Origin: Bradyrhizobium sp. 186
Lineage (GTDB): Bacteria; Pseudomonadota; Alphaproteobacteria; Rhizobiales; Xanthobacteraceae
Direction: 5' to 3'
Assembly: GCF_023101685.1 (NCBI RefSeq)
Contig: NZ_CP082164.1
Span: 2,790,001 to 2,854,000 of the forward strand
DNA length: 64,000 bases
In this document: positions 33,707 through 55,941 of the stretch, piece after piece
Layout: each line of letters starts with the position of its first letter
Position numbering within the stretch: position 1 is the first letter of the stretch
The notes under the pieces: generated by a model
Seen by the model: the letters and a program-made list of their open reading frames with translations, nothing else
What the model was told of the DNA's origin: nothing
Databases searched by the model: none
Program-made: the position numbers and the translations under genes

Positions 33707-34639
33707 ATGACCACCAGCGACGATGCGGTGGCGGTTTTGGGTGCTGAAGCTCCACCGGCAGCCTGGCGGGGATCGCGGTGGCGTCTGGCTTTGCCGGTCG
33801 GGCTTCTTGCCGTCCCGATGTTGGCATTTCTCGCGTACTTCTTCTTCTATCCGGCGTTGGGGCTGCTGCTCTCGAGCATCCAGACGCAGGATAGCCGCGG
33901 CATTATCGGACGCCCGTTCACGCTTGCGCACTACGCACGTCTGATCAATGTGGAGCTTTATGCACGCGTGCTTTGGACGACGCTGCGGATCAGCATCATC
34001 ACCTCGGCGCTCGCGACGGTGCTCGCCTATCCGGTCGCGCTGGTGATGGTCAAGAGCCGGCCGATGATTACGCGGATCATTACGCTGATCGTCATTGCGC
34101 CCTTGATCGTCAGCGTGGTCGTTCGTGGCTACGGATGGCAGTTGGTGCTTCAGAACGGTCCGAAAGGGATGTTGAACTGGGTCCTGATGACATTGCATGT
34201 CATCGACGCGCCCTTGTCGGTTCTGTACACCGAAGCGGCCGTCGTCATCGGGTCGCTGCACGTGTTCTTCCCGATGATGGTTCTGCCGCTGGCATCGGCG
34301 CTCGGTAAGATCGATCCCAACCTCGAAGATGCGGCCCGCATGCTCGGCGCGCCGTGGTGGAAGGTGTTCCTCCGGGTGACGCTCCCGTTGAGCATGCCCG
34401 GTTTCGTGGCGGGCTTTACCCTGGTGTTTTCGCTCACCGCCGGCTCCTTCGTCATTCCCGCGATCCTGGGTGGCGCCTCGGCGATCATGCTTGGCAATTT
34501 GATCGAGCAGCAGATCTTCGTCGTCTACGATTGGCCATTCGGCGCTGCGATTGCCGTCGTTCTCGTCGGCCTCGTCCTCGCGGTCAACGGTGTCTCGATG
34601 TGGCTTCTGGAAGGCCGGCGTCTCAGGAGGCCCGACTGA
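33707..34639 (+). CDS. ABC transporter permease, polyamine type (PotB-like)
   Basis: A 310-residue inner-membrane permease starting MTTSDDAVAVLG. Hydrophobic helices include LPVGLLAVPMLAFLAYFFF (about 29-47) and several more; the EAA loop that contacts the ATPase is EDAARMLGAPWWKVFLRVTL. Family: spermidine/putrescine/opine-type importers. The stop overlaps the next permease start (TGATG). First gene of a transport operon continuing to the pxp genes. Confidence 0.9.
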   Translation: MTTSDDAVAVLGAEAPPAAWRGSRWRLALPVGLLAVPMLAFLAYFFFYPALGLLLSSIQTQDSRGIIGRPFTLAHYARLINVELYARVLWTTLRISIITSALATVLAYPVALVMVKSRPMITRIITLIVIAPLIVSVVVRGYGWQLVLQNGPKGMLNWVLMTLHVIDAPLSVLYTEAAVVIGSLHVFFPMMVLPLASALGKIDPNLEDAARMLGAPWWKVFLRVTLPLSMPGFVAGFTLVFSLTAGSFVIPAILGGASAIMLGNLIEQQIFVVYDWPFGAAIAVVLVGLVLAVNGVSMWLLEGRRLRRPD

Positions 34640-35442
34640 TGGACGAACGATTTTCCGGCTTCGGCGCCTTCATCCTCTACACAATTACCGCCGGCATGAT
34701 GCTGTTCATCCTGGCACCGCTTGTCCTCGTCATGGCGGTGTCGGTCTCCGATTCCTATTTCGTGACCTTTCCTCCGCAAGGCTTCACGCTGAAATGGTAT
34801 GCCAAGGTCCTCCAGGATCGCGACTTCCTTGAGGCGATGAGGCTGAGCATCCTGCTCGCGCTCGGCACGACGGCGGGGTCGCTCCTGCTCGGCGTGCCGG
34901 CGGCCTTTGCGCTGGTGCGCGGCAACTTCTTCGGTCTGGCGGCGATCAAGGGGTTTCTGCTGTCGCCGCTGATTTTCCCGGCGCTGGTGACAGGCCTGGC
35001 GCTACTTCAGATCCTCACAAAGCTCGGCTCCCAGGATGCCCGGCTCAATCTTCTGATCGGGCACGTGGTCGTGACGTCGCCCTATGTCATCCGCACGGTC
35101 GTCACCAGCCTTCAGCTGGTGGACGAAAATCTGGAGGACGCCGCACGCACGCTTGGCGCGAACCGGCTGCGAACCTTCTGGCGCGTGACGCTGCCGCAGA
35201 TCGCCTCCGGCGTCGCCGCCGGCGGGCTGTTCGCCTTCATGGTGTCCTTCGACAATTACCCGGTCACGATGTGGCTGGCGAATTCTGAATACTCGCCCGT
35301 GCCGCTCGTCTTGATGCGGCAACTGGTCAACGTCTTTGACCCTTCCGTGCCGGCGATGTCGACGATCATCATCCTCATGGCGATGGTCGGCGTCCTGCTG
35401 CTGGAGAAGCTGGTCGGCCTTCGCCGCGCGCTGGCTGCCTGA
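34639..35442 (+). CDS. ABC transporter permease, polyamine type (PotC-like)
   Basis: A 267-residue permease from the ATG at 34639, preceded by CAGGAGG. Six membrane helices can be traced, beginning AFILYTITAGMMLFILAPLV; the EAA loop is EDAARTLGANRLRTFWRVTL. It pairs with the upstream permease as the two halves of the membrane channel. Further open frame upstream of this start is an artefact of the neighbour. Confidence 0.9.
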   Translation: MDERFSGFGAFILYTITAGMMLFILAPLVLVMAVSVSDSYFVTFPPQGFTLKWYAKVLQDRDFLEAMRLSILLALGTTAGSLLLGVPAAFALVRGNFFGLAAIKGFLLSPLIFPALVTGLALLQILTKLGSQDARLNLLIGHVVVTSPYVIRTVVTSLQLVDENLEDAARTLGANRLRTFWRVTLPQIASGVAAGGLFAFMVSFDNYPVTMWLANSEYSPVPLVLMRQLVNVFDPSVPAMSTIIILMAMVGVLLLEKLVGLRRALAA

Positions 35443-35470
35443 TGTACATTGGTAGATGGAGATTGAAATC

Positions 35471-36535
35471 ATGAACCTGACACGTAGGACTCTCATTAAA
35501 GCCGGTGCATCCGCGGTTGCCTTCCCGACGATCATCAGCCGGTCGTGGGCGCAGGACGCCAAGCAACTGCATGTCGGCGTCTACAATTCCGCGCTCGGCA
35601 AGCTGATCCAGAAGGAGGTCATTCCCAAGTTCGAGGCTGAATTCAAGTGCCGCGTCTTCACGATCGAAGGCGCCACGCTCTCCAACATCGCCGCCCTTCG
35701 CGCGACCCGTGATACGCCGCGCTTCAGCATGATGATGATGGATGACGTCGGCATCCCCCAGGCCAAGCAGGAAGGACTGATCGACAAGCTCGACGCCAGC
35801 AAAATCCCCAACCTCGAGAAGGTCTATCCGCGCTATCTCTTCGAGGACGGCTACGGCGTCGGCTTCTCGATCTCCAGCGCGGCCATGTTCATAAATCCGC
35901 AAGTGACGAAGCCGCTCGAGAGCTATGAGCAGATCTTCGACGCAAAGTATCGCAAGCAGATCCTGCTGAATACGCCCAAGAACACCCAGAGCGTGCTGAT
36001 GCTCATCGTGGCGACGGCGCTCACGACGGGAAAGGCGCTGAAGGAGGCGCAATACCTGGTCGATAGCGGCTGGGACAAGCTCGCGACTCTCAAGCCCAAC
36101 GTCCTGACCATCTACGACAGCGAGGCGCAGGTGCTGCAGGTGGCCCAGGGCCAGGCGACGATCGGCGGCATCGAATACTCGAAGGCGATCTATCCACACA
36201 CGGCCAAGGGCATGCCGCTCGACATGACCTTCCCCAAGGAAGGTGCGTTCACCGGCATCAACAGCATGACGTTGGTCAAGAATGCGCCCGAGCCCGAGCT
36301 CGCTCGTGCCCTGATCAACCGCATTCTCGAGCCCTCGATCGCCAAGATGCTGTCCGAGCAGACTCTCAGCGCGCCGTCGGTAGGCGGCATCGACTTTAAG
36401 CCGGAGACGGCCAAGTTCCTTGCCTATCCCGACACCAAGGCAACCGATCTCGGGCTGTTCACGCCGGACTGGAAGTTCATCGTTCCGCGCCGCGGTCCCT
36501 GGCTGGAGCGCTATAATCAGGTGTTCACGAGCTAG
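35471..36535 (+). CDS. ABC transporter periplasmic binding protein (PotD-like)
   Basis: A 354-residue protein from the ATG at 35471. The N-terminus MNLTRRTLIKAGASAVAFP has a weak twin-arginine pattern (TRRTLIK) and ends ISRSWAQD, a cleavage-like site. The mature part shows the extracellular solute-binding type 1/6 fold: FEAEFKCRVFTIEGATLSNI, FEDGYGVGFSISSAAMFINP and TIGGIEYSKAIYPHTAKGMP. It would select the substrate for the surrounding permeases. The ligand cannot be read from sequence. Confidence 0.9.
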   Translation: MNLTRRTLIKAGASAVAFPTIISRSWAQDAKQLHVGVYNSALGKLIQKEVIPKFEAEFKCRVFTIEGATLSNIAALRATRDTPRFSMMMMDDVGIPQAKQEGLIDKLDASKIPNLEKVYPRYLFEDGYGVGFSISSAAMFINPQVTKPLESYEQIFDAKYRKQILLNTPKNTQSVLMLIVATALTTGKALKEAQYLVDSGWDKLATLKPNVLTIYDSEAQVLQVAQGQATIGGIEYSKAIYPHTAKGMPLDMTFPKEGAFTGINSMTLVKNAPEPELARALINRILEPSIAKMLSEQTLSAPSVGGIDFKPETAKFLAYPDTKATDLGLFTPDWKFIVPRRGPWLERYNQVFTS

Positions 36536-36545
36536 GCAGGCTGCC

Positions 36546-37640
36546 ATGAGGTCTTCCGAAGTCAGGCTTCACCGCCTCAGCAAGGAATACAACCGCACCG
36601 TTGCGGTCGACGACGTGTCGCTCGCGATCGAGCCCGGCCACATGGTCGCGCTGCTTGGTCCGAGCGGGTGCGGCAAGACGACCTGCCTTCGCATGATCGC
36701 GGGGCTGATCCGTCCGACATCCGGCGACGTCTTCGTGAACGACAAGAGGATGACCAACGTTCCGGTGCACCGCCGCAACGTCGGGATGCTGTTCCAAAAC
36801 TACGCGCTGTTTCCTCATCTGACCGTCGAGGAGAACATCGCATTCGGCCTCGAGATGCGCGGGATCACAAAGGCGGATGCCGCAAGGAAGGTCAGTGAAG
36901 CCCTCAATCTCGTCCAGTTATCCAGCTTCGGGAAGCGCTATCCGGCGCAACTCTCAGGCGGTCAGCAACAGCGCGTCGCGCTGGGGCGCGCCCTGGTGAT
37001 CGAGCCGGCGATGCTGCTGCTCGACGAGCCGCTGGGGGCGCTCGACAAGGGACTTCGCGAGAGCATGCAGGTCGAGTTGCGTGCCCTTCAGCGCAGGCTC
37101 GGCCTGACCACCATCATGGTGACCCACGACCAGGACGAAGCCCTGACGATGGCAGACAAGATCGTGGTGATGCGCGATGGCAAGCTCGAGCAGGTCGGCT
37201 CAGCCACTGAGATCTACCAGCGCCCGACCTCGAAATTCGTCGCGAAGTTCATCGGTGCTTCAAATCTGTTTGAAGGCCTTGTTGAGCAGCGAAACGGGAG
37301 CGGAGCGGTCATTCGGGTGTCGCCCGAATTGAGCCTTCAGGTTGACCAGATTCCACCATCGGCGACCGACGTCATGATTTCGATCAGGCCTGAAGCAATT
37401 GTGGTCGAGAAGGCCGTTCAGGGGACGGCGATGCAACGTGCAAACAGCGTGACGGCGCGTGTCGACCAAGCCATCTATCGAGGCTTCGTCAGTCATTATT
37501 ATCTTAAAACAGAGAGTGGCGAGCAGATCATCGTGTTCGAGCAGAATCAGTCGCAACAGGCGGGACTTCGATACGCGGTGGGCGAAGAGGTTGTTGCGCG
37601 GTGGGAAACTCCGAGCAATCACGTTATTGCGCGCCACTGA
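36546..37640 (+). CDS. ABC transporter ATPase (PotA-like)
   Basis: A 364-residue importer ATPase starting MRSSEVRLHRLSKEYNRT. Walker A is GPSGCGKTT, the Q loop is LFQNYALFPHLTV, the signature is LSGGQQQRVALGRAL, Walker B is MLLLDEPLGALD and the switch His is in VTHDQDEA. A TOBE domain follows (about 260-360) with ISIRPEAI. All catalytic parts are intact. It starts 10 bases after the binding-protein stop. Confidence 0.95.
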   Translation: MRSSEVRLHRLSKEYNRTVAVDDVSLAIEPGHMVALLGPSGCGKTTCLRMIAGLIRPTSGDVFVNDKRMTNVPVHRRNVGMLFQNYALFPHLTVEENIAFGLEMRGITKADAARKVSEALNLVQLSSFGKRYPAQLSGGQQQRVALGRALVIEPAMLLLDEPLGALDKGLRESMQVELRALQRRLGLTTIMVTHDQDEALTMADKIVVMRDGKLEQVGSATEIYQRPTSKFVAKFIGASNLFEGLVEQRNGSGAVIRVSPELSLQVDQIPPSATDVMISIRPEAIVVEKAVQGTAMQRANSVTARVDQAIYRGFVSHYYLKTESGEQIIVFEQNQSQQAGLRYAVGEEVVARWETPSNHVIARH

Positions 37641-37795
37641 AGCTCGGGGCGAGCGCCGAATGTACCGCCGCGGACCGCTACGATCGGTATCCGTGCGGAC
37701 GTGTGGTGGAAGAACGGGGCCAACCAGTCGTCCTGCGGGCAATCGACATCGCTTATACCCGCAGATGAACATCGTGTTGGATCGGCATCCGCTGC

Positions 37796-38545
37796 TTGGC
37801 TAGACTCAAAAAGTGGCAGCGCGGTGGGCGTTGGACTGGCGAGGCGTTCTTGTCGATTAATCAACCCGGCGCTCCCTTTGTGGGCGCGATCGAGAAAAGC
37901 CCGAAGATCAGCCTGATCGGCACACTGGCGATGCTGATTGAGGCGCCGGGTGATTTTGACATGACTCAGCAAGGACGCGTCTGGGCCCTGGCTGATGCGC
38001 TATCGTCCTGGCCGAACGTCCAGGAGGCTGTCATTGGCGTCACCAATGTGTTGCTGGTATTTGAGCAGCCGCCTGACGATATCGGCGTGCTCAGCGCTTC
38101 AGTAGTCGAGCTGTGGCACCGTCTGCCAAGCCGCATGGCGGACGGAAAGCTCATCGAGATTCCTGTCGTCTATGGCAGTGAGTACGGATTCGACCTGCCT
38201 GCGGTCGCCATGCGCGCGGGATTGTCCGAACGGGAAGTCATCAGGATCCATAGCGACGGCGAATATACGGTCTGCGCGGTCGCGAGTTCGCCGGGGTTCG
38301 GTTACCTTCATGGCCTTGATCCGCGCATCTACATGTCACGGAAGTCCGTACCTTCGCTGAACATGAGCGCGGGCTCGGTAACCATCGGCGGGATGCAGAC
38401 CGGCGTCGCAGTCCTGACCAGTCCAAACGGGTGGAATGCGATCGGCTGGGCCTCGGTTGCGATGTTCGATCCAGAGCGGACCCAGCCGTCTCTCATGCTG
38501 CCGGGTGACCGCGTTAGGTTCAGGATCGATCGGATCGAACTGTGA
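37796..38545 (+). CDS. pxpB: 5-oxoprolinase subunit PxpB (KipI/allophanate hydrolase subunit 1 family), copy 1
   Basis: The family domain begins around PKISLIGTLAMLIEAPGDFD and includes GFGYLHGLDPRIYMSRKS, then SAGSVTIGGMQTGVAVLTSP and a final PGDRVRFRIDRIEL. PxpB works with PxpC and PxpA in ATP-dependent opening of 5-oxoproline to glutamate. The start is uncertain: a TTG at 37796 and a GTG at 37880 are candidates. It overlaps pxpC by four bases. The domain is equivalent to the second copy at 41714, but the two are clearly different proteins. Confidence 0.88.
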   Translation: MARLKKWQRGGRWTGEAFLSINQPGAPFVGAIEKSPKISLIGTLAMLIEAPGDFDMTQQGRVWALADALSSWPNVQEAVIGVTNVLLVFEQPPDDIGVLSASVVELWHRLPSRMADGKLIEIPVVYGSEYGFDLPAVAMRAGLSEREVIRIHSDGEYTVCAVASSPGFGYLHGLDPRIYMSRKSVPSLNMSAGSVTIGGMQTGVAVLTSPNGWNAIGWASVAMFDPERTQPSLMLPGDRVRFRIDRIEL

Positions 38546-39519
38546 TCGAGATATTGACCAGCCATGCGTTCAACACCATCCAGGATCGGGGCCGCCATGG
38601 CGCGCGCAGCCTCGGCGTGAGCACGTCAGGAGCCATGGATCCCGTCGCGCTCGAGGCCGGCAACGCGCTGCTCGGCAACGATCGCGATGCCGCCGGCATC
38701 GAGATCCAGACGTTCCCTTTCCGGCTGCGATTTTCGCGCGACACCACGTTTGCGCTCACCGGTGCCGATCATGACGCCACATTGGCAGGCGTTACTGTTC
38801 CATCATGGTGGTGCAGGCGGGCCAAGGCGGGCGATATCCTCTCGATCAGCGCGCCCAGGCGTGGCGCACGCGTCTACGTGACGTTTGGAGGGGGCATCGA
38901 CTTGCCGCGCGTGCTGGGCTCGCGCAGCACCCATTTGCGCGCCGGATTCGGGGGGATGGAAGGACGCGCCTTGCAAGCCGGCGACATCGTGCCGGTGGGT
39001 GCGACACAGCGCGCGGACGACGGCCGCGTCGATTTTGGCGTCGAACCGCCCGATGTGGCGACCGCAGGCAGTGGTCTGCCGAAGGAGCGCGTGCTGCGGG
39101 TGCGTGTCATGCGAGCTGGCGAGCACGATCTATTTTCGGAGGCGATGCGGGCGACGTTCTGGTCCACGACATGGAAGATCAGCGCGCGGAGCGATCGGGG
39201 CGGATACCGTCTCACCGGAGGCAAGCTGACATTGGACGTTCCGGTCGAGATGCGCTCGCATGGCGTGGTGGCTGGCGTCGTGCAAGTGCCGCCGGCCGGC
39301 GAGCCGATCATCCAGATGAGCGACGCCAACACGGCAGGCGGCTATCCGAAGATGGCCGCCGTGATCCAGGCCGATCTCTGGCGCCTCGGCCAGGCGGCGC
39401 CAGGGTCGTTCATCGCCTTCAGCGAGGTCAGCTACCAGGACGCGGTCGCGGCCATGGCTCCCGTCAATGATTACCTCGCCAGGTTGCGAGCGACCGCGGA
39501 TCTCTATCGAGCGCTTTAA
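38542..39519 (+). CDS. pxpC: 5-oxoprolinase subunit PxpC (biotin-dependent carboxyltransferase family), copy 1
   Basis: A 325-residue protein: MIEILTSHAFNTIQDRGRHG, then GVSTSGAMDPVALEAGNALL, FALTGADHDATLAG, GGIDLPRVLGSRSTHLRAGF and IIQMSDANTAGGYPKMAAVI. These mark the KipA/allophanate hydrolase subunit 2 family. With PxpB it probably forms the ATP-dependent half of the oxoprolinase complex. Start overlaps the pxpB stop; pxpA follows 35 bases later. Confidence 0.92.
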   Translation: MIEILTSHAFNTIQDRGRHGARSLGVSTSGAMDPVALEAGNALLGNDRDAAGIEIQTFPFRLRFSRDTTFALTGADHDATLAGVTVPSWWCRRAKAGDILSISAPRRGARVYVTFGGGIDLPRVLGSRSTHLRAGFGGMEGRALQAGDIVPVGATQRADDGRVDFGVEPPDVATAGSGLPKERVLRVRVMRAGEHDLFSEAMRATFWSTTWKISARSDRGGYRLTGGKLTLDVPVEMRSHGVVAGVVQVPPAGEPIIQMSDANTAGGYPKMAAVIQADLWRLGQAAPGSFIAFSEVSYQDAVAAMAPVNDYLARLRATADLYRAL

Positions 39520-39554: not shown

Positions 39555-40322
39555 ATGAAGATCGGCATCAATTCAGACATGGGCGAAGGCTTCGGCAACT
39601 ATCGCATCTGCGACGACGAGGCGCTGATGGGCATCATCTCGTCTGCCAACGTGGCGTGCGGTTTCCACGCCGGCGATCCCATCATCATGGATCGGATGGT
39701 CCGCCTGGCGAAGCAGAAGAGGGTTGAGGTCGGCGCTCATCCGGGGCTGCCCGATCTGCTCGGGTTTGGCCGCCGCGTGATCCAGATGGACGCCGCCGAA
39801 CTCGAGAAGCACATGGTCTATCAGATCGGCGCGCTGCAGGCGATTGCGACCAATGCCGGCCACCGCGTGACCCACGTCAGCTTCCATGCCGCGATGGGCA
39901 ACATGGTGAATGCGGATCCGGACATGGCCGCCGTCGTCGCCCGCGCCATCGCCACCATCGATCGTGATTTCATCGTTTTTTCCCAGCCTGACGCCGGGAT
40001 CGTGCGCGCCGCGCGCAAGGTCGGCCTGCGTGTTCTGACGCTGTTTCTGGCCGATCGCGCCTATGACGAGAACGCTCATCTGGTGTCCCGCAAGCTTCCC
40101 AATTCCGTCATCACCTCGCCCGAGGCCGTGGCCGAGCGGGTTCAGCGGTTCCTTGACAGCGGAACGGTGAAGACGATCGAAGGTAAATCGATCAAGGTCG
40201 AGGCGCGCTCGATCCTGATCCACAGCGACACCCCCGGATCGGTCAATCTCGCCGGCACGGTGCGCCGCGTGATCGAGCAGGGCGGCGGCGAAGTCACGCC
40301 CGCAACCGTATTGCTTAATTGA
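39555..40322 (+). CDS. pxpA: 5-oxoprolinase subunit PxpA (LamB/YcsF family)
   Basis: A 255-residue protein: MKIGINSDMGEGFGNYRICD, then SANVACGFHAGDPIIMDRMV, VGAHPGLPDLLGFGRR, HVSFHAAMGNM and FLADRAYDENAHLVSRKLPN. The Asp, His and Glu residues of the YcsF metal/substrate site are present. This is the only pxpA in the window, so it may serve both pxpBC sets. Its stop lies inside the end of the convergent accB-like gene. Confidence 0.93.
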   Translation: MKIGINSDMGEGFGNYRICDDEALMGIISSANVACGFHAGDPIIMDRMVRLAKQKRVEVGAHPGLPDLLGFGRRVIQMDAAELEKHMVYQIGALQAIATNAGHRVTHVSFHAAMGNMVNADPDMAAVVARAIATIDRDFIVFSQPDAGIVRAARKVGLRVLTLFLADRAYDENAHLVSRKLPNSVITSPEAVAERVQRFLDSGTVKTIEGKSIKVEARSILIHSDTPGSVNLAGTVRRVIEQGGGEVTPATVLLN

Positions 40323-40749
40323 TCGGGCTGCTCTCGGCGAGCGGGCGGATGCGCGCAATCGGTGTGCCGTAGCCGACCATTGCGCCGGTCTCGGCGATCA
40401 CGGCATCGACGGTGCCGGCGGCCGGGGCAACGACGGGTGCATACAGCAATCCGATCTTGACCAGGCCGATGATCGCACCGGCCTCGATGCGCTGGCCAGG
40501 CGCGACGAACGGCTTGTCCCGCCAGGGATGAGCCGCGAGGAAATGTCCTGCGACATCGGCCTTCGCAATGATGGGGTTGTCTCCGGTGGGATCGGCCGCG
40601 GCGGCAAGCCTCGGAGACGCAGCCCTCCGAGCGGCCGTGTCCATGACAAGCTTCAAGGACTGTCCCGGCTCCTCGATCTCGATCGCCTCGACACCGGACC
40701 TCTCGAGGATCTGCGCCAGACGCTCGATGTCGGTCATCTCTATCGGCAT
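40315..40749 (-). CDS. Biotin-carrier-like protein lacking the biotin lysine
   Basis: A 144-residue protein of the AccB/biotin-lipoyl fold: N-terminal helix MPIEMTDIERLAQILERSGV, a linker, then a beta-barrel with KADVAGHFLAAHPWRDKPFV, APGQRIEAGAIIGLVKIGLL and PAAGTVDAVIAETGAMVGYG. In a normal carrier the turn after GxxxxxV is EAMKM with biotin on Lys; here the aligned turn is KIGLL, so biotin cannot be attached at the usual place. It is the last gene of the minus-strand operon; its start overlaps the end of pxpC by 10 bases. Confidence 0.8.
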   Translation of the reverse strand: MPIEMTDIERLAQILERSGVEAIEIEEPGQSLKLVMDTAARRAASPRLAAAADPTGDNPIIAKADVAGHFLAAHPWRDKPFVAPGQRIEAGAIIGLVKIGLLYAPVVAPAAGTVDAVIAETGAMVGYGTPIARIRPLAESSPIN

Positions 40750-41717: not shown

Positions 41718-42376
41718 CGGATCACCCGTTCAATCTCGAAGCGAATGGTATCGCCCGGCGCGAGCGCGGCCGGTGTCGGCCAGGACGGATCGAAGAACGT
41801 CCAGGTGGTGTGCCCGATGGCGTGCCAACCGCTGGGGCCGGGCGATGCGGAGACGCCGGTCTGCGATCCGCCGATGGACACCGAGCCGCCCGCGGAACGC
41901 TGTAGCGGCGTCTCACGCCGCGGCATAGTGATGCGCGGATCCATGCCGCCGAGATAGCAGTAGCCGGGATGGCTGCCGAGTGCGAACACCGTGTAGAGCG
42001 GCGCGGCATGGATCGACACCACGTCGTCGACCGACAGGCCGCAATGATTGGCGACCGCCTGAAGCGACGATCCGATCTCACCGCCATAGGTGACCGGCAG
42101 CCTGATCTCGCGACCGTCGATCGCGAGGCCATCCGTTTCGTCCCAGCCGTCGTTGAGGGCGGCGATCAAGGTATCTAGCTCGCGGGGCGGCGTCTCGAAG
42201 GTCAGCATCAGGTTGGTGATGCCGGGAATCGCCTCGCGGATCCCCGGCCATTTCGACGCCGTCGCTGCCAGCGACCAGATGCGCCGCTGATGCGGCAGGT
42301 CGAACGCCCCAGGCGCCTCGAACAGGAGGGCCGAGGTCCCGAGCAGGCTGAACCGCGGTCGGTTGGGCGTCGTCAT
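41714..42376 (-). CDS. pxpB: PxpB family protein (KipI), copy 2
   Basis: A 220-residue protein of normal family length: [60 protein letters not shown] and [20 protein letters not shown]. It overlaps accC upstream and pxpC downstream by four bases each, forming one tightly coupled unit. No pxpA partner is on this strand. Confidence 0.9.
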
Positions 42377-44980: not shown

Positions 44981-45106
44981 CCACAGGGCTCCTCTGCTAC
45001 CGTCCAACCCCCAATGGCGTCGGCTGCAACGCGAGCGGCGGACGAGTGCAGCACTACCTATAGGCCCCTCAGGTTCCAGGTGGTAAGAACATTTCCTTCT
45101 GATCCC

Positions 45107-45121: not shown

Positions 45122-45164
45122 TGCTGCTGCATTGCTCCCTGTCTGGATATCCGGAGGCGCCGTA

Positions 45165-46115: not shown

Positions 46116-46297
46116 CAAGGACATTCATTTCGATCGGGATGGGGCCGCCGTCCACCTGTCGGCGACGGGTGAAACGTCGCGACAATGCGCGCGACCTATA
46201 ACGAAACGCAATGCGGCAATCCTGAAATATGAATTTGCCGCCTCAAGGCGGTTGGGTATGGAGGTGTAACGGAGATCGTGGGCGCAAGGAGGTTACC

Positions 46298-48147: not shown

Positions 48148-49074
48148 GTGTCGCCGCGCCTGAATTTTCGTCAGATCGAGGCTTTCCGCGCGGTCATGCT
48201 CACCGGCACGACGATCGCGGCTGCCAATATGCTCAACACGACGCAGCCCTCAATCAGTCGCTCGCTTGCACAGATTCAGTCGGCGGCGAAACTCAAGCTG
48301 TTCGAACTCGATCGTGGCCGACTGCGTCCGACGCCAGAAGCTGTCATGCTGTTTGAGGCCGTGCAGCGGAATTTTCTCGGCCTGGAGGCCATCGAAGAGA
48401 CGGTGGCGTTGCTGCGACGCTCGGGCATCGGCCGGCTGCGCGTGGCCTGTACGCCGGCGCTCGGCATGAGCGTTATGCCCGCCGTCATGGCGAGATTCAA
48501 GGTTCGTCAGCCTGACGTTCACATCACCCTCAGGACGATCAGCTCCTACGACGTCCGCGAGGGATTGTTGAACGGGCTGTACGACCTCGGTGTCACGACC
48601 AATTCGCTTCAGCTCGAGGGTGCGCAGCTCCAGACCAAGGTCGTCGATCAGGTGGCCGCGGTCTGCGTGATGAGCCGCTCGCACCGGCTGGCGACGCATG
48701 CGCATGTCGGGCCGCGCCATTTCCAGTCCGAGACGTTGTTGACACTGGACCGGCAGGACGATCTGAGTGACGAGTGGCGGCGGGCGCTTGCGCTGGCGAA
48801 GGTGGTGCCAAGCTCGATGATCGAAACGACCTATTCGGCAACCATCTGCCGTCTCGCCGAGGTCGGCGCCGGAATCGGCGTGGTGAATCCATACATTGCG
48901 TCCGTGTTCTCGGACCGGCTGCGCGTGGTCCCGGTCAAGCCGACGATTGGCGTCAAGATATTCGTAGCCTATCCCCGGCACGTCGCGATGTCGGCCCTCG
49001 CTTCCGAGTTCATCACGCAGATCAGCGATCAGTTCAGGAACGACCCGCGACCATCCCGGAGCGGAAAACGCTGA
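48148..49074 (+). CDS. LysR-family transcriptional regulator
   Basis: A 308-residue regulator from a GTG: MSPRLNFRQIEAFRAVMLTG, HTH in TTIAAANMLNTTQPSISRSL, then LFELDRGRLRPTPEAVMLFE and the periplasmic-binding-like effector domain from GRLRVACTPALGMSVMPAVM. It resembles LysR proteins of amino-acid (e.g. octopine or opine type) metabolism. It precedes the tctC-hyu operon in the same orientation and is its probable regulator. Confidence 0.9.
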   Translation: MSPRLNFRQIEAFRAVMLTGTTIAAANMLNTTQPSISRSLAQIQSAAKLKLFELDRGRLRPTPEAVMLFEAVQRNFLGLEAIEETVALLRRSGIGRLRVACTPALGMSVMPAVMARFKVRQPDVHITLRTISSYDVREGLLNGLYDLGVTTNSLQLEGAQLQTKVVDQVAAVCVMSRSHRLATHAHVGPRHFQSETLLTLDRQDDLSDEWRRALALAKVVPSSMIETTYSATICRLAEVGAGIGVVNPYIASVFSDRLRVVPVKPTIGVKIFVAYPRHVAMSALASEFITQISDQFRNDPRPSRSGKR

Positions 49075-49280: not shown

Positions 49281-50234
49281 GTGAGGTTGATTTCGGTCGT
49301 TCTATCCTTCGTCCTGTGCAGCCCCTTCTATCTCTCAACGGCTCGCGCCAATCAGATGCGCATGATCGTTCCGTTCGCGGCCGGCGGCACGGCCGATGTT
49401 CTCGGACGCATCGTCGCGCAAGAGCTTGGTGCGCTCACCGGCAACCAGGTAGTGGTCGAAAACCGCCCAGGCAGCGGCGGCAATATCGGCGCGGATTCGG
49501 TGGCGCGCGGGCCGGCCGACGGTTCGGTCCTGTTGCTCGGCACGATCGGGATTCATGCCGCAAGCAAGATCTACCGAACCCTGCCATACGATCCGAACAG
49601 GGATCTTCAGCCGGTCACGATTCTTGCCGAGGTTCCGAACGTGCTCATCGTGCATCCGTCCGTTGCGGCGAAGGATGTCAGGGAGTTCTTGGCGCTGGCC
49701 AAGGAGAAGCCCGGCGCGCTCAATTTTGGATCGGCCGGCAATGGTTCGTCGACGCACATGATCGCGGAATTGTTCAAGCTGAAAGCCAAAGTGGATCTGA
49801 CGCACGTCCCTTACCGGGGAAGCGCTCCGGCATTGAACGACCTTGTCGCGGGGCAGATCCAGCTCATGTTCGAGAATTTGCCGACGGCATTGCCGTTCAT
49901 CGAGAGCGGCACGGTCCGCGCGCTGGGCGTCACCAGTGCAGCCCGGTCTGCGAGCCTGCCGTCCCTGCCGACGATCGCCGAAGCTGGCGTTCCCGGATAC
50001 GATGCGACGGCCTGGTTCACTATCGCGGTTGCCGGCGGTGTTTCACCCGCAACGGTCGGGAAGCTCAACGCGGACATTTGCAAGGTCCTCGCTGAGCCGG
50101 AGGTGGTCGAGCGCTTCAAGAAGCTCGGCGCAGCCATCGTCGGCAACAGCGTGGCGGACGCCAAGGCGTTCGTCGCCGGCGAAACCGCGAAGTGGAATAA
50201 CGTCATTGAAACCGCGCAGATCAAGATCGATTGA
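49281..50234 (+). CDS. Tripartite tricarboxylate transporter-type binding protein (TctC/Bug)
   Basis: A 317-residue exported protein from a GTG with an AAGAGGAG upstream. The signal peptide MRLISVVLSFVLCSPFYLST ends near ARA. The Bug fold is marked by MRMIVPFAAGGTADVLGRIV, VVENRPGSGGNIGADSVARG, HVPYRGSAPALNDLVAGQIQ and TIAEAGVPGYDATAWFTIAV. No tctA/tctB membrane genes are near, as is common for orphan Bug proteins; it may bind a carboxylate for a distant permease. Confidence 0.92.
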   Translation: MRLISVVLSFVLCSPFYLSTARANQMRMIVPFAAGGTADVLGRIVAQELGALTGNQVVVENRPGSGGNIGADSVARGPADGSVLLLGTIGIHAASKIYRTLPYDPNRDLQPVTILAEVPNVLIVHPSVAAKDVREFLALAKEKPGALNFGSAGNGSSTHMIAELFKLKAKVDLTHVPYRGSAPALNDLVAGQIQLMFENLPTALPFIESGTVRALGVTSAARSASLPSLPTIAEAGVPGYDATAWFTIAVAGGVSPATVGKLNADICKVLAEPEVVERFKKLGAAIVGNSVADAKAFVAGETAKWNNVIETAQIKID

Positions 50235-50257
50235 GCGCGCACCGCCAGGAATACGCC

Positions 50258-51433
50258 GTGTCCATGCCCCTCTCGCGCTTCACTGTCCTTGATCTCACGC
50301 GGGTTCGTTCGGGCCCTCTTGCGGTCCGCCAGCTCGCCGACTGGGGTGCCAATGTCATCAAGATCGAAGCACCCGAGGTCGTCGACAGCTCGAAGGGCAT
50401 GGGCGGCGAACGCGACGGCTCCGATTTCCAGAATACGCACCGGAACAAGCGCAGCATCACCCTCAATCTCAAACGGCCGGAAGGGCGTGAGCTCTTCTAT
50501 TCGCTCGTTGCGAAGGCGGACGTGGTCGTCGAGAATTACCGCCCCGACGTGAAGGAGCGTCTCGGCATTGACTACGAGCGCCTCAGAGCCGTGAACAGGC
50601 GCATCGTGCTCGCCAGCATATCGGGCTTCGGGCAGTTCGGACCCTATGCGCGCCGTCCTGGCTTTGATCAGATCGCGCAAGGGATGGGCGGGCTGATGTC
50701 CGTGACGGGGTTGCCGGGGCAGGGGCCGGTGCGGGCCGGCATTCCAGTCGCGGACCTGTCGACGGGCCTTTACGCAGCCATCGGCATTCTGATTGCGTTG
50801 CTGGAACGCGAGGCTTCCGGTGAAGGTCAATGGGTGCACACCTCCCTCCTGGAGGCGCAGATCGCGATGATGGATTTCCAGGCGACGCGATGGCTGATCG
50901 ACAAAGAGCGCCCGGGACAGGCCGGCAACAACCATCCGACCAGCATTCCAACAGGCCTGTTTCGTGCGCGTGATGGCGTGCTCAACCTCGCGGGCGGCGG
51001 CGAATCCATGTGGCGCCGGATATGCTCCGCATTGGAGCTGGGCGATGTGGTGGACCGGCCGGAATTTTCGTCGGAAGAGCTGCGATCGAAGAACCGTGAC
51101 GCGCTGAACGCGATCCTTCAGGAGCGTTTCATTCAGGAGCCGGTCGGCCATTGGGTCCGCCTCCTCAACCAGGCCGGGGTGCCCTGTGGTCCGGTCTATG
51201 GCATCGACGAGATGTTCTCCGATCCCCAGGTCGAAGCACTCGATATGCGTCTGCGGGTGCAGCACAAGAGGCTTGGCGCTCTTGATCTGATTCGCAGCCC
51301 CGTTTCGCTCAGCCGCGGAACGAGGCGGGTCGAAGCGACGCCGGAGCGTGGAGAGCACACGGATGCCGTGTTGAAGGAATTCGGCGTGACATTCGAACAA
51401 ATCGCCTCCTTGCGCGCGCAGAACGTCATCTAG
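50258..51433 (+). CDS. Class III CoA-transferase (CaiB/BaiF family)
   Basis: A CoA-transferase of about 391 residues. The GTG at 50258 has CCAGGA upstream; the ATG at 50264 is also possible. It shows LDLTRVRSGPLAVRQLADWG, NLKRPEGRELFYSLVAKADV, GFGQFGPYARRPGFDQIAQG and the catalytic Asp in PVADLSTGLYAAIGIL. Such enzymes move CoA from a donor thioester to a free acid by an Asp-bound intermediate. It would activate the ring-opened acid produced by the lactam hydrolases. It overlaps the preceding gene slightly if the TTG at 50231 is used. Confidence 0.9.
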   Translation: MSMPLSRFTVLDLTRVRSGPLAVRQLADWGANVIKIEAPEVVDSSKGMGGERDGSDFQNTHRNKRSITLNLKRPEGRELFYSLVAKADVVVENYRPDVKERLGIDYERLRAVNRRIVLASISGFGQFGPYARRPGFDQIAQGMGGLMSVTGLPGQGPVRAGIPVADLSTGLYAAIGILIALLEREASGEGQWVHTSLLEAQIAMMDFQATRWLIDKERPGQAGNNHPTSIPTGLFRARDGVLNLAGGGESMWRRICSALELGDVVDRPEFSSEELRSKNRDALNAILQERFIQEPVGHWVRLLNQAGVPCGPVYGIDEMFSDPQVEALDMRLRVQHKRLGALDLIRSPVSLSRGTRRVEATPERGEHTDAVLKEFGVTFEQIASLRAQNVI

Positions 51434-51451: not shown

Positions 51452-52243
51452 ATGATCTTGCAGTCTTTGCAGCTCACGACAAGCGACGGGGTGTCAACGC
51501 TGACCCTGAACAATCCGGCGAAGCACAACGCGATTAATTTCGCGATGTGGCAGGCGCTGCCGGACCTGTTGCAGAAGGTTGCGGCGGACCAGACCGCACG
51601 GGTCCTGATTCTGACCGGCGCCGGCGATCGCGCCTTTTGCTCCGGCAATGATGTCTCCGAATTCGACCACGTACGCAGCACGCCGGCGCAGATCGAGCGC
51701 TACAACGGGCTTCAACGAACCGTCTGCGAACGCCTTGCGAAACTGTCGAAGCCAACCATCGCCATGATCGACGGCCATTGCCTCGGTGCCGGACTGGAGT
51801 TCGCTCTTCTGTGCGACTTCCGCTATTGCACGCCGGCTTCCCGGTTCGCGGTGCCGGCCGTCAAGCTGGGACTGCCGTATCGCTACGAGGATATCGTCAA
51901 GGTACTCGATGTGATCGGGCCGTCGCGCACGCGGGAGATGGTCCTGGGCGGGCGCCAGATTGACGGCGCGAGAGCCGCGGACATCGGTCTCGTGCATCGG
52001 CTCGCCGCTTCGCGTGAGGCGCTTGTCCGCGAGGTCGCCGACCTGGCGGGTGAGCTTGCCATGGCGGCGCCGCTTAGCCTCGCTGCGGCGAAACTGACCA
52101 TCAACGAGGCGCTGCGACGCGATGCGGCCGCGGACCTCGCGCTCTGTCAGAAGTTGGCCGACGAGGTCTATGCCAGCCATGATTACTCTGAAGGCCGGGC
52201 CGCTTTCGCGGCCAAGCGCAAGCCGAGATTTGAAGGGCGTTGA
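51452..52243 (+). CDS. Enoyl-CoA hydratase/isomerase family protein
   Basis: A 263-residue crotonase-fold enzyme: LTLNNPAKHNAINFAMWQAL, LTGAGDRAFCSGNDVSEFDH (first oxyanion loop) and MIDGHCLGAGLEFALLCDFR (second oxyanion loop), then VPAVKLGLPY. The usual Glu pair of hydratases is not obvious at that last position, so isomerase, hydrolase or decarboxylase activity is also possible. It follows the CoA-transferase by 18 bases and would act on its CoA thioester product. Confidence 0.9.
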   Translation: MILQSLQLTTSDGVSTLTLNNPAKHNAINFAMWQALPDLLQKVAADQTARVLILTGAGDRAFCSGNDVSEFDHVRSTPAQIERYNGLQRTVCERLAKLSKPTIAMIDGHCLGAGLEFALLCDFRYCTPASRFAVPAVKLGLPYRYEDIVKVLDVIGPSRTREMVLGGRQIDGARAADIGLVHRLAASREALVREVADLAGELAMAAPLSLAAAKLTINEALRRDAAADLALCQKLADEVYASHDYSEGRAAFAAKRKPRFEGR

Positions 52244-52294
52244 TGGACCTCGCCGGGACCTGCGTGACGAATCAAGGGATTGTGGACGATATTC

Positions 52295-54394
52295 ATGAGC
52301 TACCGGATTGCGATCGATATTGGCGGCACGTTCACGGACGGCGTCATTGAAAATGCAGCCACAGGCGAGGTGCGGCTGGCCAAGCGCTTGACGACCCAGG
52401 CCGATCCGGGGGAGGCGCTTGCCGATGTGGTCGACGACCTGCTTGCCGCTGTCCGTCCGTTCAACGGAAGCGGCAGCCCGTCGGGCGCCGTGACCGAAGT
52501 CGTTCACGGCAGCACCCTGGTGACCAATGCGCTGATCGAGCGCAAGGGCGCCAGGACGGCGCTAGTCGCGACCGCGGGCACCGCCGATGTCATCGATATC
52601 GGCCGCGAGGTGCGCTACGATCTCTACGATCTCGACATCCAGATGCCGAAGCCGCTGGTCGAGCGCGAGCACCGGTTCGAGCTTGCCGAGCGGATCGCCG
52701 CTGATGGCGCCGTCCTTGCCGCGCCGGGCCAGGCGGAGATCGACGCCGTGGTCGAGAAGCTGAGACGATCCGGCGCTCAATCCGTCGCGGTCTCGTTCCT
52801 GCATTCCTGTGTCAATCCGGAGAACGAGATCCGCGTGGGCGATGCGCTCAGGGCCGCTCTGCCGGATATCGCGATCTCGCTGTCGTCCCGGGTTGCCCGC
52901 GAAATCCGCGAGTACGAACGGACGACGACGGCCACGGCAAATGCGTTTGTTCAGCCGATCGTCGCAAAATACCTGAACGAGCTGTCGGCACGGCTCCGGC
53001 AGGCCGGCATCGATGCGCCGTTGCGCATCATGGTGTCGAGTGGTGGCTCGACGTCGGCCGGCATCGCAGCCGAGGTGCCCATCACGACGCTGGAGTCGGG
53101 GCCGGCCGGTGGCGTATTGAGCGCGGCCAATGCCGGGCGCGCCGCGGGGTTTGACGATGTTCTCGCCTTCGACATGGGCGGCACCACCGCAAAGATCTGC
53201 ACAGTGGTGGCTGGTGCACCCTCGATCGTGCACGCGTTCGAGGCCGCCCGGGTCCGCCGCTTCAAGAAGGGCAGCGGCCTGCCGCTTCTGATCGCCAGCA
53301 TCGATCTCATCGAAATCGGAGCCGGCGGTGGCAGCATCGCGCGCATCAGCGATCTCGGTCTCTTGACGGTGGGGCCCGACAGCGCCGCCGCCGATCCCGG
53401 ACCTGCCTGCTATGGACGAGGCGGCAGAAGTGCGACGGTGACCGACGCCGACCTGACGCTCGGCTATCTCAACGCAGGCTTCTTCCTCGGTGGCCGGATG
53501 ACGCTCGATGCGTCCGCCACCCAGGCCGCGCTACAGCGGCTCGGCGATCGTCTGTCGTTGAAGCTGCTGGAGGTCGCCAAGGGCATTTTCAACGTCGTCA
53601 ACGAAGCGATGGCGGCTGCGGCGCGTGTGCATATCGCGGAGAAGGCGCAGGATCCGCGTCGCTTCACCATGGTCGCGACGGGCGGCGCCGGGCCCGTTCA
53701 CGCGGTCGAGATTGCGCGCAAGCTGCGCTTGCCCCGTGTCCTGTTCCCGATTGCGGCCGGGACCGGCTCGTGTCTCGGATTCCTCGCGGCGCCGATCCGC
53801 GTCGACCGCTCCTGGTCCAAGCCGCAAGGCCTGGAAACGGTCGATTGGCAGCAAATCGCGACGACACTCGCGGACCTCAAGCGCGAAGCCGAGCAGGAGC
53901 TCAATTCCGCACTGACGAGTCCTGCCGACGTCGTGTGGCAGATTTCCCTCGAGATGCGCTATGTCGGGCAGGGGGCGAACCTCACGGTGTCCTTCCCCTG
54001 GCGCAGCATCACCCCTGCCTTCGAGGCCGAGCTCGATGCGGCCTTCCGCAAGGCTTATGAAGCCAGTTACGGCGGCGTGCTGCCGGCAGGATCGCTGGAG
54101 GTCGTGACCTGGCGCATTGTCGGTGCGACGCGGCAGGACATCAAGCGCTTCGTCTGGCCCACGGGTAACGCCCCGTCTGCGGCGAGGCCCAAGGCCCATC
54201 GCGCTATCTTCTGCACGCAAGCCAACAACATGACGGACGTGCCGGTCTACGACCGCTACGCGCTCGGCAGCGGGACGCGGTTGCGCGGCCCCTTGATCCT
54301 CGAAGAGTCGGAATCGACCATCGTCGTTCCGGTCGAGGCCGATGTCGAAGTGCTGGGCGACCTCAGTGTGCTGATCCATCTGGGAGGCGAATGA
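52295..54394 (+). CDS. hyuA: Hydantoinase/oxoprolinase subunit A
   Basis: A 699-residue ATP-dependent ring-opening enzyme starting MSYRIAIDIGGTFTDGVIEN. It shows VVHGSTLVTNALIERKGART, REIREYERTTTATANAFVQP, SSGGSTSAGIAAEVPITTLE, AFDMGGTTAKICTVV and PACYGRGGRSATVTDADLTL; all actin/ASKHA-type phosphate loops are present. Family members hydrolyse hydantoins, 5-oxoproline or carboxylate acetone-like compounds. Its stop overlaps hyuB by four bases. Substrate unknown. Confidence 0.93.
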   Translation: MSYRIAIDIGGTFTDGVIENAATGEVRLAKRLTTQADPGEALADVVDDLLAAVRPFNGSGSPSGAVTEVVHGSTLVTNALIERKGARTALVATAGTADVIDIGREVRYDLYDLDIQMPKPLVEREHRFELAERIAADGAVLAAPGQAEIDAVVEKLRRSGAQSVAVSFLHSCVNPENEIRVGDALRAALPDIAISLSSRVAREIREYERTTTATANAFVQPIVAKYLNELSARLRQAGIDAPLRIMVSSGGSTSAGIAAEVPITTLESGPAGGVLSAANAGRAAGFDDVLAFDMGGTTAKICTVVAGAPSIVHAFEAARVRRFKKGSGLPLLIASIDLIEIGAGGGSIARISDLGLLTVGPDSAAADPGPACYGRGGRSATVTDADLTLGYLNAGFFLGGRMTLDASATQAALQRLGDRLSLKLLEVAKGIFNVVNEAMAAAARVHIAEKAQDPRRFTMVATGGAGPVHAVEIARKLRLPRVLFPIAAGTGSCLGFLAAPIRVDRSWSKPQGLETVDWQQIATTLADLKREAEQELNSALTSPADVVWQISLEMRYVGQGANLTVSFPWRSITPAFEAELDAAFRKAYEASYGGVLPAGSLEVVTWRIVGATRQDIKRFVWPTGNAPSAARPKAHRAIFCTQANNMTDVPVYDRYALGSGTRLRGPLILEESESTIVVPVEADVEVLGDLSVLIHLGGE

Positions 54395-55941
54395 TGATTG
54401 ATCCCATTTCGCTCGAGATCCTCTGGACCAGGCTGGTCAGCCTCGTCGACGAGGCTGCCGCAACATTGGTGCGCACGTCATTTTCGACGATCGTGCGCGA
54501 ATCGAACGACTACGCCGTCGTGCTGCTCGATCGCGATGCCCGGCTGCTGGCGCAATCGAGTCAGAGCATTCCCTCGTTCATCTGCACACTGCCCGAGACC
54601 GTGCGGCATTTTCTCAAACGTTTTCCGCGCGACACGCTGAAGCCCGGGGACATCATGATCACCAATGACCCGTGGCTCGGCACGGGCCACCTTCCCGACA
54701 TCAGCATCGCGATGCCGGTGTTTCGGGACGGAATAGTGGTGGGATTTGCCGGCAGTGTCGCGCATTCGCCCGATATCGGCGGCCGCCTTCGCTCGCCCGG
54801 CAACCGCGACCTCTATGAGGAGGGTCTGCGTATCCCGCCGATGATGCTGATCGCCGCTGGAACCATCAACGAAACACTGCTCGAGATGATCCGCAACAAT
54901 GTGCGCATCCCCGATCAGGTCTTAGGAGACCTGTGGGCGCAGGTTTCAGCTAATCGTATGCTGGCGCAGCGCCTGCTCGAGATGCTCGACGAGACCGAAT
55001 GCGATCTCGTCGAGGTCGGTAAGGAAATGTATGCGCGATCCGAATCCGCCATGCGTAGCGCCATTCAGACGTTGCCGGACGGTGACTACGAATATGAGGC
55101 AGGGGTGGACGGCTTCATCGAGCCCGTCACGATCAGGTGCCGGATCACAGTCAAGGGCGATGCGCTAGTCGTCGATTACGCCGGCTCATCCCCGCAGTTG
55201 CCGCGCGCCATCAATGTCGTACCGATCTACACCTTTGCCTACACGGCCTATGCGCTCAAATGCGTGCTTGCGCCCACCGTCCCGAACAATGACGGCTCGT
55301 TCCGGCCCATCACCACCACCGCGCCGTTGGGGTCGATCCTCAATCCGAAATTCCCTGCGGCAGTGAGTGCGCGTGCCATGACCGGCCATCTGCTGCCGAC
55401 CGCCGTGATGGGTGCGCTCGCCAATGTGGTTCCGGACCGTGTTCGCGCCGCGGCGGGATCGCCGTTGTGGTGTGTGCAGCTCGCCGGCGCGCACGAAGGC
55501 CGGCGCTTTGCTGCGACGCTGTTCCTCAACGGCGGTCAGGGGGCCGGCGCGAAAGGGGACGGGTTGCCCGCGCTGAGCTTCCCCAGCAACCTCGCCAATA
55601 CGCCGATCGAGGTCATCGAATCCCAAGCGCCCATCCGGATCGTACGGCGTGCGCTACGGCGCGGGACTGGCGGGGCAGGCAAGACGCGAGGCGGCGACGG
55701 ACAAGTCTTCGAACTCGACCTACTGGCTGATGAGCCGGTGGCGATGTCGTTCATGGCTGATCGCCTGCGCACAGCTGCACCGGGCATGCTTGGTGGCGAA
55801 CCGGGCGCCACCGGCCGTGTGTTGCTCAACGGGGAGCCGCTAGACCCGCGAGAAACGCTCGTGGCAGCGCCGGGTTCGCGGCTAACGCTGGAAACGCCTG
55901 GCGGCGGCGGTTTCGGATCCGCGACCGAGTGGACCGGTTGA
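54391..55941 (+). CDS. hyuB: Hydantoinase/oxoprolinase subunit B
   Basis: A 516-residue partner of HyuA: IDPISLEILWTRLVSLVDEA, VRESNDYAVVLLDRDARLLA, DIMITNDPWLGTGHLPDISI, GFAGSVAHSPDIGG and GRLRSPGNRDLYEEGLRIPP. The His/Asp metal-site motifs (NDPWxGxGHLPD, AHxxDIGG) are intact. The length is normal for HyuB; the C-terminal GGGGFG is the usual ending. It closes the operon and is followed by a hairpin. Confidence 0.93.
   Translation: MMIDPISLEILWTRLVSLVDEAAATLVRTSFSTIVRESNDYAVVLLDRDARLLAQSSQSIPSFICTLPETVRHFLKRFPRDTLKPGDIMITNDPWLGTGHLPDISIAMPVFRDGIVVGFAGSVAHSPDIGGRLRSPGNRDLYEEGLRIPPMMLIAAGTINETLLEMIRNNVRIPDQVLGDLWAQVSANRMLAQRLLEMLDETECDLVEVGKEMYARSESAMRSAIQTLPDGDYEYEAGVDGFIEPVTIRCRITVKGDALVVDYAGSSPQLPRAINVVPIYTFAYTAYALKCVLAPTVPNNDGSFRPITTTAPLGSILNPKFPAAVSARAMTGHLLPTAVMGALANVVPDRVRAAAGSPLWCVQLAGAHEGRRFAATLFLNGGQGAGAKGDGLPALSFPSNLANTPIEVIESQAPIRIVRRALRRGTGGAGKTRGGDGQVFELDLLADEPVAMSFMADRLRTAAPGMLGGEPGATGRVLLNGEPLDPRETLVAAPGSRLTLETPGGGGFGSATEWTG

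Follow-up and report, generated by a model that had tools for sequence, protein, structure and literature searches.

Does a cluster of genes for opening cyclic amides in the genome of Bradyrhizobium sp. 186 serve a single catabolic route, or do several systems merely share one locus? The window analyzed here, meaning the whole stretch of 64,000 nucleotides between positions 2,790,001 and 2,854,000 of contig NZ_CP082164.1 in this 10.77-Mb genome, contains two PxpB-PxpC pairs, one PxpA, a biotin carboxylase (AccC) with its carrier protein (AccB) and a HyuA-HyuB pair, which a preliminary description had combined into one full route for a cyclic amide or imide. Part of that proposal holds: the two PxpBC modules, AccBC, the short-chain dehydrogenases (SDRs), an aminotransferase, a NAC-like LysR gene and an aldolase are one conserved unit, hereafter AB, whereas the HyuAB genes of the window do not belong to it and form a second unit, C. 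Judging from the sequences, there is about an even chance that AB encodes a form of the PxpABC lactam opener that depends on biotin and feeds transamination and aldol cleavage, with C as a separate system. The strongest new points would seem to be a biotin-linked clade of Pxp proteins with conserved partners, a subunit resembling the plant BADC proteins, and the finding that two lactam-opening systems meet repeatedly.

Two joined units

AB extends from 30,558 to 48,000 and C from 48,148 to 55,941, and they are two units with one join site, at about 48,000-48,086. The two-unit view follows from the DNA homology with the window, which stops at 48,000 and 47,976 in two loci with AB only (L038 and L042) and begins at 48,086 in a locus with C only (L142), while joined loci match the window straight across the junction. 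At the left edge of AB, homology in four AB genomes and in the plasmid CP092842 begins at 30,549-30,564. The genes from SDR0 to the RraA-type aldolase are syntenic in genomes G007, G009 and G017, with 68-97% protein identity and the NHL gene also present in two of them, and the HyuAB unit was not found within the 14-16 kb read beyond AB in these three. Unit C looks like a putative HyuAB lactamase with CoA activation that was acquired independently and became joined to AB apparently once.

Pfam and NCBIfam profile searches, with 30 open reading frames (ORFs) scanned for domains between 29,388 and 58,587, confirmed the genes that had been named: an importer, PxpB, PxpC and PxpA on the plus strand, PxpC, PxpB, AccC, AccB and an SDR on the minus strand, and the aldolase, NHL, TctC, CoA-transferase, enoyl-CoA hydratase, HyuA and HyuB genes again on the plus strand. 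The aminotransferase and the other SDRs are also present, but they lie at 30,558-33,486, just outside the start at 33,707 that had been set for the locus; two LysR genes, SDR0 and the BADC-like gene had been overlooked. SDR0 (30,558..31,331, minus strand, Pfam adh_short) marks the left edge of AB and is followed on the plus strand by SDR1, a YdfG-like enzyme placed by profile matches and by DNA and protein comparison with its paralogue SDR2 (31,488..32,291), and by a class I, aspartate-aminotransferase-like aminotransferase, AAT (32,272..33,486; PRK06107 516.5 bits, below the cut-off of 617). The genes of an ATP-binding cassette (ABC) importer come next, with permease 1 (33,707..34,639; BPD_transp_1, ATG at 33,707), permease 2 (34,639..35,442; start deduced from the annotated 804-base orthologue in the plasmid locus L137), a distantly PotD-like substrate-binding protein (35,456..36,535; SBP_bac_8, 59.3 bits with the PotD model against a cut-off of 582) and an ATPase with a TOBE domain (36,546..37,640; domain match, start by comparison with L137), and then PxpB-A (37,796..38,545, CT_C_D), PxpC-A (38,542..39,519, CT_A_B) and PxpA (39,555..40,322, LamB_YcsF), the only PxpA of the block. 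Read from right to left, the minus strand carries SDR2 (44,222..45,007; YdfG-like, profile match), AccB (43,728..44,180), AccC (42,373..43,728), PxpB-B (41,714..42,376, CT_C_D), PxpC-B (40,740..41,717, CT_A_B) and the BADC-like gene (40,315..40,749). Divergent from these, the NAC-like LysR gene (45,132..46,115), the LigK/RraA-type aldolase (46,229..46,969) and the NHL-repeat protein (46,994..47,995; domain match) complete AB on the plus strand, the homology of AB-only loci ending near the last of them. Unit C, also on the plus strand, comprises the second LysR gene (48,148..49,074), a TctC-type periplasmic binding protein (49,281..50,234), a type III CoA-transferase (50,231..51,433), an enoyl-CoA hydratase family protein (51,452..52,243), HyuA (52,280..54,394; hydantoinase/oxoprolinase alpha, CapA/ApcC superfamily) and, at its end, HyuB (54,391..55,941; hydantoinase B/oxoprolinase), all assigned by domain or family matches. 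Several adjacent genes overlap by a few bases in an operon-like manner.

Conservation of AB and its biotin-linked Pxp genes

Orthologues of PxpC-B, used as the marker of AB at 78% identity or more, were present in 29 of 265 genomes of the genus, the window genome included and the top 5 to 8 candidates of each genome scored. A scan of species genomes with the PxpC-B family gave 214 loci, the best 80 of which were taken for comparison: 19 of the window type (18 from Bradyrhizobium and one from Chelatococcus, L073) and 61 more distant ones, of which 42 have complete flanks. All 18 Bradyrhizobium loci preserve the gene order between SDR1 and RraA, and 11 of them also have the NHL gene; Chelatococcus has the same core genes in a rearranged order, with no AAT within the stretch examined. 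The expectation that the locus would be linked in related genomes therefore holds for AB and not for unit C, whose HyuB accompanies the AB marker in only 2 of the 29 genomes. Among the window-type loci NAC, AccB, AccC, PxpA, SDR2, RraA and the BADC-like gene each occur in 19/19, AAT in 18/19 and NHL in 11/19. The distant loci, found in Paraburkholderia, Caballeronia, Variovorax, Marinomonas, Pseudomonas, Roseibium, Skermanella and others, have PxpA in 59, AccC in 57, an SDR in 54, NAC and AccB in 53 each, AAT in 52 and RraA in 42 of the 61, and where the flanks are complete the figures are 41 of 42 for SDR, 40 for each of AAT, NAC and AccC, and 31 for RraA. Their layout is often an AAT opposite a NAC-AccB-AccC-PxpB-PxpC-BADC-like-PxpA-SDR run, so that a simpler relative of AB recurs in Alpha-, Beta- and Gammaproteobacteria. 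By comparison, AAT, NAC, AccB, AccC, SDR2 and the BADC-like gene were each found in none of 20 ordinary pxpBCA loci of the genus (L146-L165), which served as controls. The importer is the variable part, PotD-like in the window and elsewhere, Chelatococcus included, often of the amino-acid type (permease in 38 and binding protein in 30 of 62 loci, named by inspection of the sequences shown); that of the plasmid record L138 is annotated as amino-acid type.

A tree of 52 PxpC rows, four of them ordinary, places PxpC-A and PxpC-B in a clade of 45 AccBC-linked rows with moderate support (84/89), parted by long branches from the ordinary PxpC of the genus, with which the window copies do not group. 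This clade, which unites A, B and the distant loci, makes it unlikely that module A is a canonical 5-oxoprolinase. The two PxpBC pairs appear to be ancient paralogues of the biotin-linked type; Chelatococcus has PxpC of both types, and the 25 kb read from Terrarubrum contain only an A-type PxpBC, which shares its locus with AccB, AccC and the BADC-like gene. Both window copies score far below the PxpC equivalog NF045499 (286.5 and 297.9 bits against a cut-off of 500), while PxpA passes its family cut-off and the PxpA, PxpB and PxpC family domains all lie in one cluster. The biotin lysine of AccB (EAMK motif) is kept in 72/72 proteins extracted from the 80 loci. Neither AccA/AccD nor any other acyl-CoA carboxyltransferase was found among the scanned ORFs, and the ordinary pxpBCA locus of the window genome lies at 5.34 Mb, with AccBC not seen in the stretch read.

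The product of the gene at 40,315-40,749 matches the biotinyl domain PF00364 with 27.7 bits, above the cut-off of 22.1, and its AlphaFold model (mean pLDDT 87.6) has as top fold match the biotin carrier domain of E. coli BCCP, 1bdo, with TM-scores of 0.91 by target length and 0.52 by query length. The biotinylation motif is absent, as read by eye, from 40/40 members of a cluster built regardless of the motif. A profile finds the gene in 76 of the 80 loci; EAMK-bearing hits were set aside in that scan, and its count of 0 of 81 with the lysine is thus partly true by construction. Of the four exceptions, L110 is a stretch that ends shortly after PxpC, and L092, L095 and L097 also show no AccB or AccC in the stretch. 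In PMC11926652, plant BADCs are described as carriers that lack the motif and reportedly glue biotin carboxylase to the carrier, while an inhibitor role has been put forward as well. The window gene shares with these subunits of plastid acetyl-CoA carboxylase the biotinyl fold lacking the biotinylation motif and the company of genes for biotin carboxylase and carrier, but it is bacterial and stands in a Pxp run where no acyl-CoA carboxyltransferase was seen; membership of the family is not claimed, and the likeness, as modelled, is structural.

A putative route for lactam breakdown

From these observations we infer a chemistry, a sharing of subunits and a substrate for AB. The importer would take up a small lactam. 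AccC would carboxylate biotin on AccB, and the split carboxyltransferase PxpB-PxpC would activate the amide of the lactam in the way that urea carboxylase activates urea, with pairs A and B presumably sharing the single AccBC, which the BADC-like subunit may hold together. PxpA would then hydrolyse the activated ring to an amino acid, AAT would transaminate it to a 4-hydroxy-2-oxo acid, and the LigK/RraA-type aldolase would split the latter into pyruvate and a second oxo acid, while the SDRs might alter a hydroxyl or carbonyl function and expression might be coupled to nitrogen status by the NAC-like LysR. A split biotin-dependent lactam carboxylase is suggested because AccB and AccC stand in the gene run and no acyl-CoA carboxyltransferase appears in the scanned ORFs. 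PxpBC is related to the carboxyltransferase of urea carboxylase (solved relatives 3va7 and 5i8i), and, as far as domains can tell, a biotin carboxylase, an EAMK carrier and CT_A_B/CT_C_D proteins would all be available as separate subunits. The solved entry 9yx5 contains a biotin-carboxylase subunit together with two PxpBC-like "allophanate hydrolase" chains, a co-presence in the entry only, and the sequence of that biotin-carboxylase subunit is shared with entries titled Mycobacterium smegmatis.

The downstream genes are compatible with such a route. The best solved relative of AAT is 6f77, "Aspartate aminotransferase A", and the aldolase scores 220.8 bits with PRK09262, the 4-carboxy-4-hydroxy-2-oxoadipate aldolase family (cut-off 179), has 3noj as best solved relative and keeps the GVRD motif. 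It thus resembles the LigK/HMG-CHA aldolases, but differs from them in falling below the equivalog TIGR02798 (195.6 bits against 304.5) and in lying among lactam-type enzymes. The NAC-like LysR protein just misses the NAC equivalog PRK11233 (303.4 bits against 309). The two SDRs that had been described as matching do so closely: SDR1 and SDR2 share 70% protein identity, more than the 55% of the PxpC copies, and their DNA forms an inverted pair, 79-84% identical (31471-32047 against 44439-44997). An RraA relative as a specific marker of AB had to be rejected, since all 20 ordinary control loci have one.

As to the substrate, a parallel is offered by the lower half of mammalian hydroxyproline breakdown, in which 4-hydroxyglutamate is transaminated and 4-hydroxy-2-oxoglutarate is then cleaved. 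This cleavage is described in the abstract of PMC3188589, and 4-hydroxyglutamate turns into 4-hydroxy-5-oxoproline during sample handling, according to PMC13117884. Because the amino acid of that pathway converts to such a lactam, a 4-hydroxy-gamma-lactam of the 4-hydroxy-5-oxoproline type, possibly 4-substituted, would be the leading guess by analogy, although an unlikely one taken by itself. In Burkholderia (L138) and Paracoccus (L140), the AccBC-Pxp cluster has nearby genes for an L-idonate 5-dehydrogenase and for a 2-hydroxyacid or D-glycerate dehydrogenase, along with a gluconokinase in L138 or a phosphogluconate dehydrogenase in L140; the 2-hydroxyacid dehydrogenase would fit a glyoxylate-like product, and the sugar-acid genes would fit other stories. 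A wider proposal, tentative and as a whole somewhat improbable, is that proteobacteria have a widespread class of biotin-dependent lactam openers made of AccC/AccB, a BADC-like glue, one or two PxpBC pairs and PxpA, in which the window combines two carboxyltransferases with one biotin carboxylase and the product is broken down by transamination and retro-aldol cleavage, as in the lower half of the hydroxyproline pathway.

Several observations weigh against a biotin-dependent lactam opener. Both PxpB copies pass the 5-oxoprolinase PxpB equivalog TIGR00370 (173.1 and 165 bits against 145.55) and AccC passes the acetyl-CoA carboxylase model TIGR00514 (660.4 bits against 626.5), so that the names alone suggest ordinary functions. 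A second AccC-linked lineage of PxpC (L044, L050, L053) falls outside the 45-row clade, which means that linkage to biotin is not unique to it. The loci L092, L095 and L097 combine PxpBCA with the same partners in the layout RraA-SDR-PxpBCA-LysR, with an aminotransferase in L092 and L095 and with AccB, AccC and the BADC-like gene not seen in the stretch, and biotin may therefore be dispensable for the route; judged by gene content, the three appear to be a biotin-free version of the same pathway in a single clade. Because the three form one clade in the PxpC tree, the loss of AccBC was probably one event, and the argument from the joint absence of AccBC and the BADC-like gene is weakened to that extent. 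RraA-superfamily genes stand beside pxpB in 20/20 ordinary loci, of the PRK08245 subfamily in L146, the one tested, and the RraA relative of L138 belongs to a further subfamily, PRK06201. Finally, the roles of the SDRs and of the NHL protein are left unexplained.

The best surviving alternative, although an unlikely one, is that AB only recovers 5-oxoproline (pyroglutamate) as a nitrogen source, with AccBC, the aminotransferase and the aldolase as ordinary helpers. PxpABC is the known prokaryotic ATP-dependent 5-oxoprolinase, in which, as assumed in PMC13274462, PxpBC phosphorylates the lactam and PxpA opens the ring. PxpB and PxpA of the window pass their family cut-offs, the three families and an adjoining importer are present as in that system, an aspartate-type transaminase and NAC suit glutamate nitrogen metabolism, and the ordinary pxpBCA loci of the genus likewise have an RraA relative. 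However, the genome already has its ordinary pxpBCA, where AccBC was not seen in the stretch read, and both PxpC copies of AB are remote from the ordinary ones in tree and profile score. The window block further differs from PxpABC in having AccB, AccC and the BADC-like gene in the run, a PxpC clade of its own, two PxpBC pairs for one PxpA, and a neighbouring transaminase, SDRs and NAC-like LysR gene. Quite unlikely is a CoA-independent AccBC-PxpBC carboxylase acting on a nitrogen compound similar to urea or guanidine, its product hydrolysed by PxpA, for although the domain set (biotin carboxylase, biotin carrier, CT_A_B and CT_C_D) equals that of urea carboxylase divided into subunits (the single-chain model TIGR02712 reaches at best 479.3 bits against 1303.85), PxpA (LamB_YcsF) takes the place of the amidase of urea amidolyase, the scanned ORFs showed no allophanate-hydrolase (amidase) domain, and the downstream transaminase and aldolase indicate a carbon skeleton.

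The biotin-dependent opener, if real, would bear on a wider puzzle, as PxpBC resembles the part of urea carboxylase that transfers the carboxyl group, yet accounts of the known 5-oxoprolinase include PxpA, PxpB and PxpC and nothing more. Where PxpBC is accompanied, throughout a conserved clade, by a biotin carboxylase, a carrier and a carrier-like subunit of its own, its chemistry can be probed directly; such a clade also leads one to expect a catabolic route, with substrates that can be tested, in numerous bacteria of soil and plants, and would offer a bacterial setting for the study of BADC-type assembly subunits. No functional description of an AccBC-PxpBC locus was found in the open-access literature of PubMed Central, which is not proof that none is in print.

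Unit C and the meeting of Pxp- and Hyu-type systems

A last question is whether unit C takes part in the same route, as the preliminary description had proposed. All three modules would then degrade a single cyclic amide or imide, HyuAB and PxpABC opening one ring after the other, or acting on two forms of the substrate, before CoA activation and steps resembling beta-oxidation. The modules are indeed joined in three genomes or records: the window genome (G000), G215, where the AB marker and HyuB lie 12.6 kb apart, and the plasmid p1 (CP092842.1, L137) of Bradyrhizobium sp. 62B from peanut nodules, which carries the complete three-module locus. This 859-kb plasmid is typed as mobilizable. Peanut is known for 4-methyleneglutamine, which might yield such lactams. 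However, orthologues of unit C HyuB, counted at 76% identity or more, occur in just 5 of the 265 genomes, and their joint presence with the AB marker in two, the window genome and G215, is not significant against 0.55 expected (P 0.094). Moreover, G194 (L142) has HyuAB together with the LysR, TctC, CoA-transferase and hydratase genes, and no AB genes in the 20 kb read. With its occurrence without AB in that genome, a LysR gene of its own and a sharp junction, the HyuAB-CoA-transferase unit finds no support as an obligatory part of one route, and the single route appears quite unlikely.

HyuA and HyuB carry full Hydantoinase_A and Hydantoinase_B domains, as do the members of the family that includes the caprolactamase CapAB, N-methylhydantoinase and acetophenone carboxylase, but they lie far below the CapA and CapB equivalogs (451.5 and 188 bits against 1000 each) and are accompanied by TctC, the type III CoA-transferase and the hydratase. 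A hydantoinase-like hydrolase, iaaCE, has been proposed in an indole-acetate route (PMC8453981); such a route was rejected for unit C, as the scanned ORFs include no oxygenase or aromatic-ring gene, and it is a distant parallel only.

A link between Pxp and Hyu genes nevertheless emerges, in an indirect form. The window genome has a second HyuAB locus, D, at 4.27 Mb (L051, G000:C1:4262000-4278000), with the order aminotransferase-NAC-like LysR-HyuA-HyuB-SDR and no Pxp genes seen in the stretch. Among the 265 genomes, 24 have a HyuB of type D at 91% identity or more, and the AB marker accompanies it in 14 where 2.6 would be expected (P 1.2e-9; 1.1e-8 when three more genomes with 70-71% matches and no AB are counted, kinship being uncorrected in both values). 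D lies about 0.9 kb from SDR0 of AB in G080 and G121 (L171, L173), which would favour the single route, whereas no linkage was seen in the remaining 12 as far as contigs show: in 5 a single contig carries both, separated by about 1 Mb or more, and in 7 they lie on different contigs. An rpoB tree was drawn for 30 chosen genomes (12 of the 14 with AB and D, 6 of the 15 with AB only, 5 of the 10 with D only and 7 of the 226 with neither). The label "both" needs 8 changes on it, at least 6 of them forced by well-supported branches, and a single-clade origin of the genomes with AB and D was accordingly rejected; with shuffled labels the mean is 9.6 changes, and 101 of 500 shuffles needed no more than 8.

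A third type of locus, chosen from search matches, brings PxpA, AccC and PxpC together with HyuAB in six of seven cases. L044 (G000:C1:2325000-2344999), L049, L050, L053, L054 and L056 contain PxpA, AccC, an AccB-like match, PxpC, LysR and HyuAB, and L055 has PxpA, AccC and PxpC, with HyuAB not seen in the stretch read; PxpB and an EAMK carrier were not found in these loci by the queries used. Also on the side of a single route, Erwinia typographi (L131) has PxpBCA next to an aminotransferase, a CoA-transferase (54% to that of the window) and a hydratase (40%). In L131, AccC and a BADC-like gene lie about 9 kb off, and HyuAB was not seen in the stretch. The Pxp-Hyu association itself may thus be meaningful, if weakly so for the window's own HyuAB. 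Pxp- and Hyu-type openers meet more than once, in the co-occurrence of D with AB and in the third locus type, and this favours related or alternative substrates over one fixed linear route.

The surroundings of the block differ from it in composition, with a G+C content of 0.58 in the flanks against 0.62-0.65 in the block. A symbiosis island, which the low-GC, transposase-bearing flanks had brought to mind, was dropped as a reading, the sole NodA found being at 8.52 Mb and the window at 2.79-2.85 Mb. Positions 1-30000 of the window are sparsely coding and carry genes or remnants of IS110-type, DDE_5 and Mutator-type transposases, together with a gene for a PAS-GGDEF-EAL protein.

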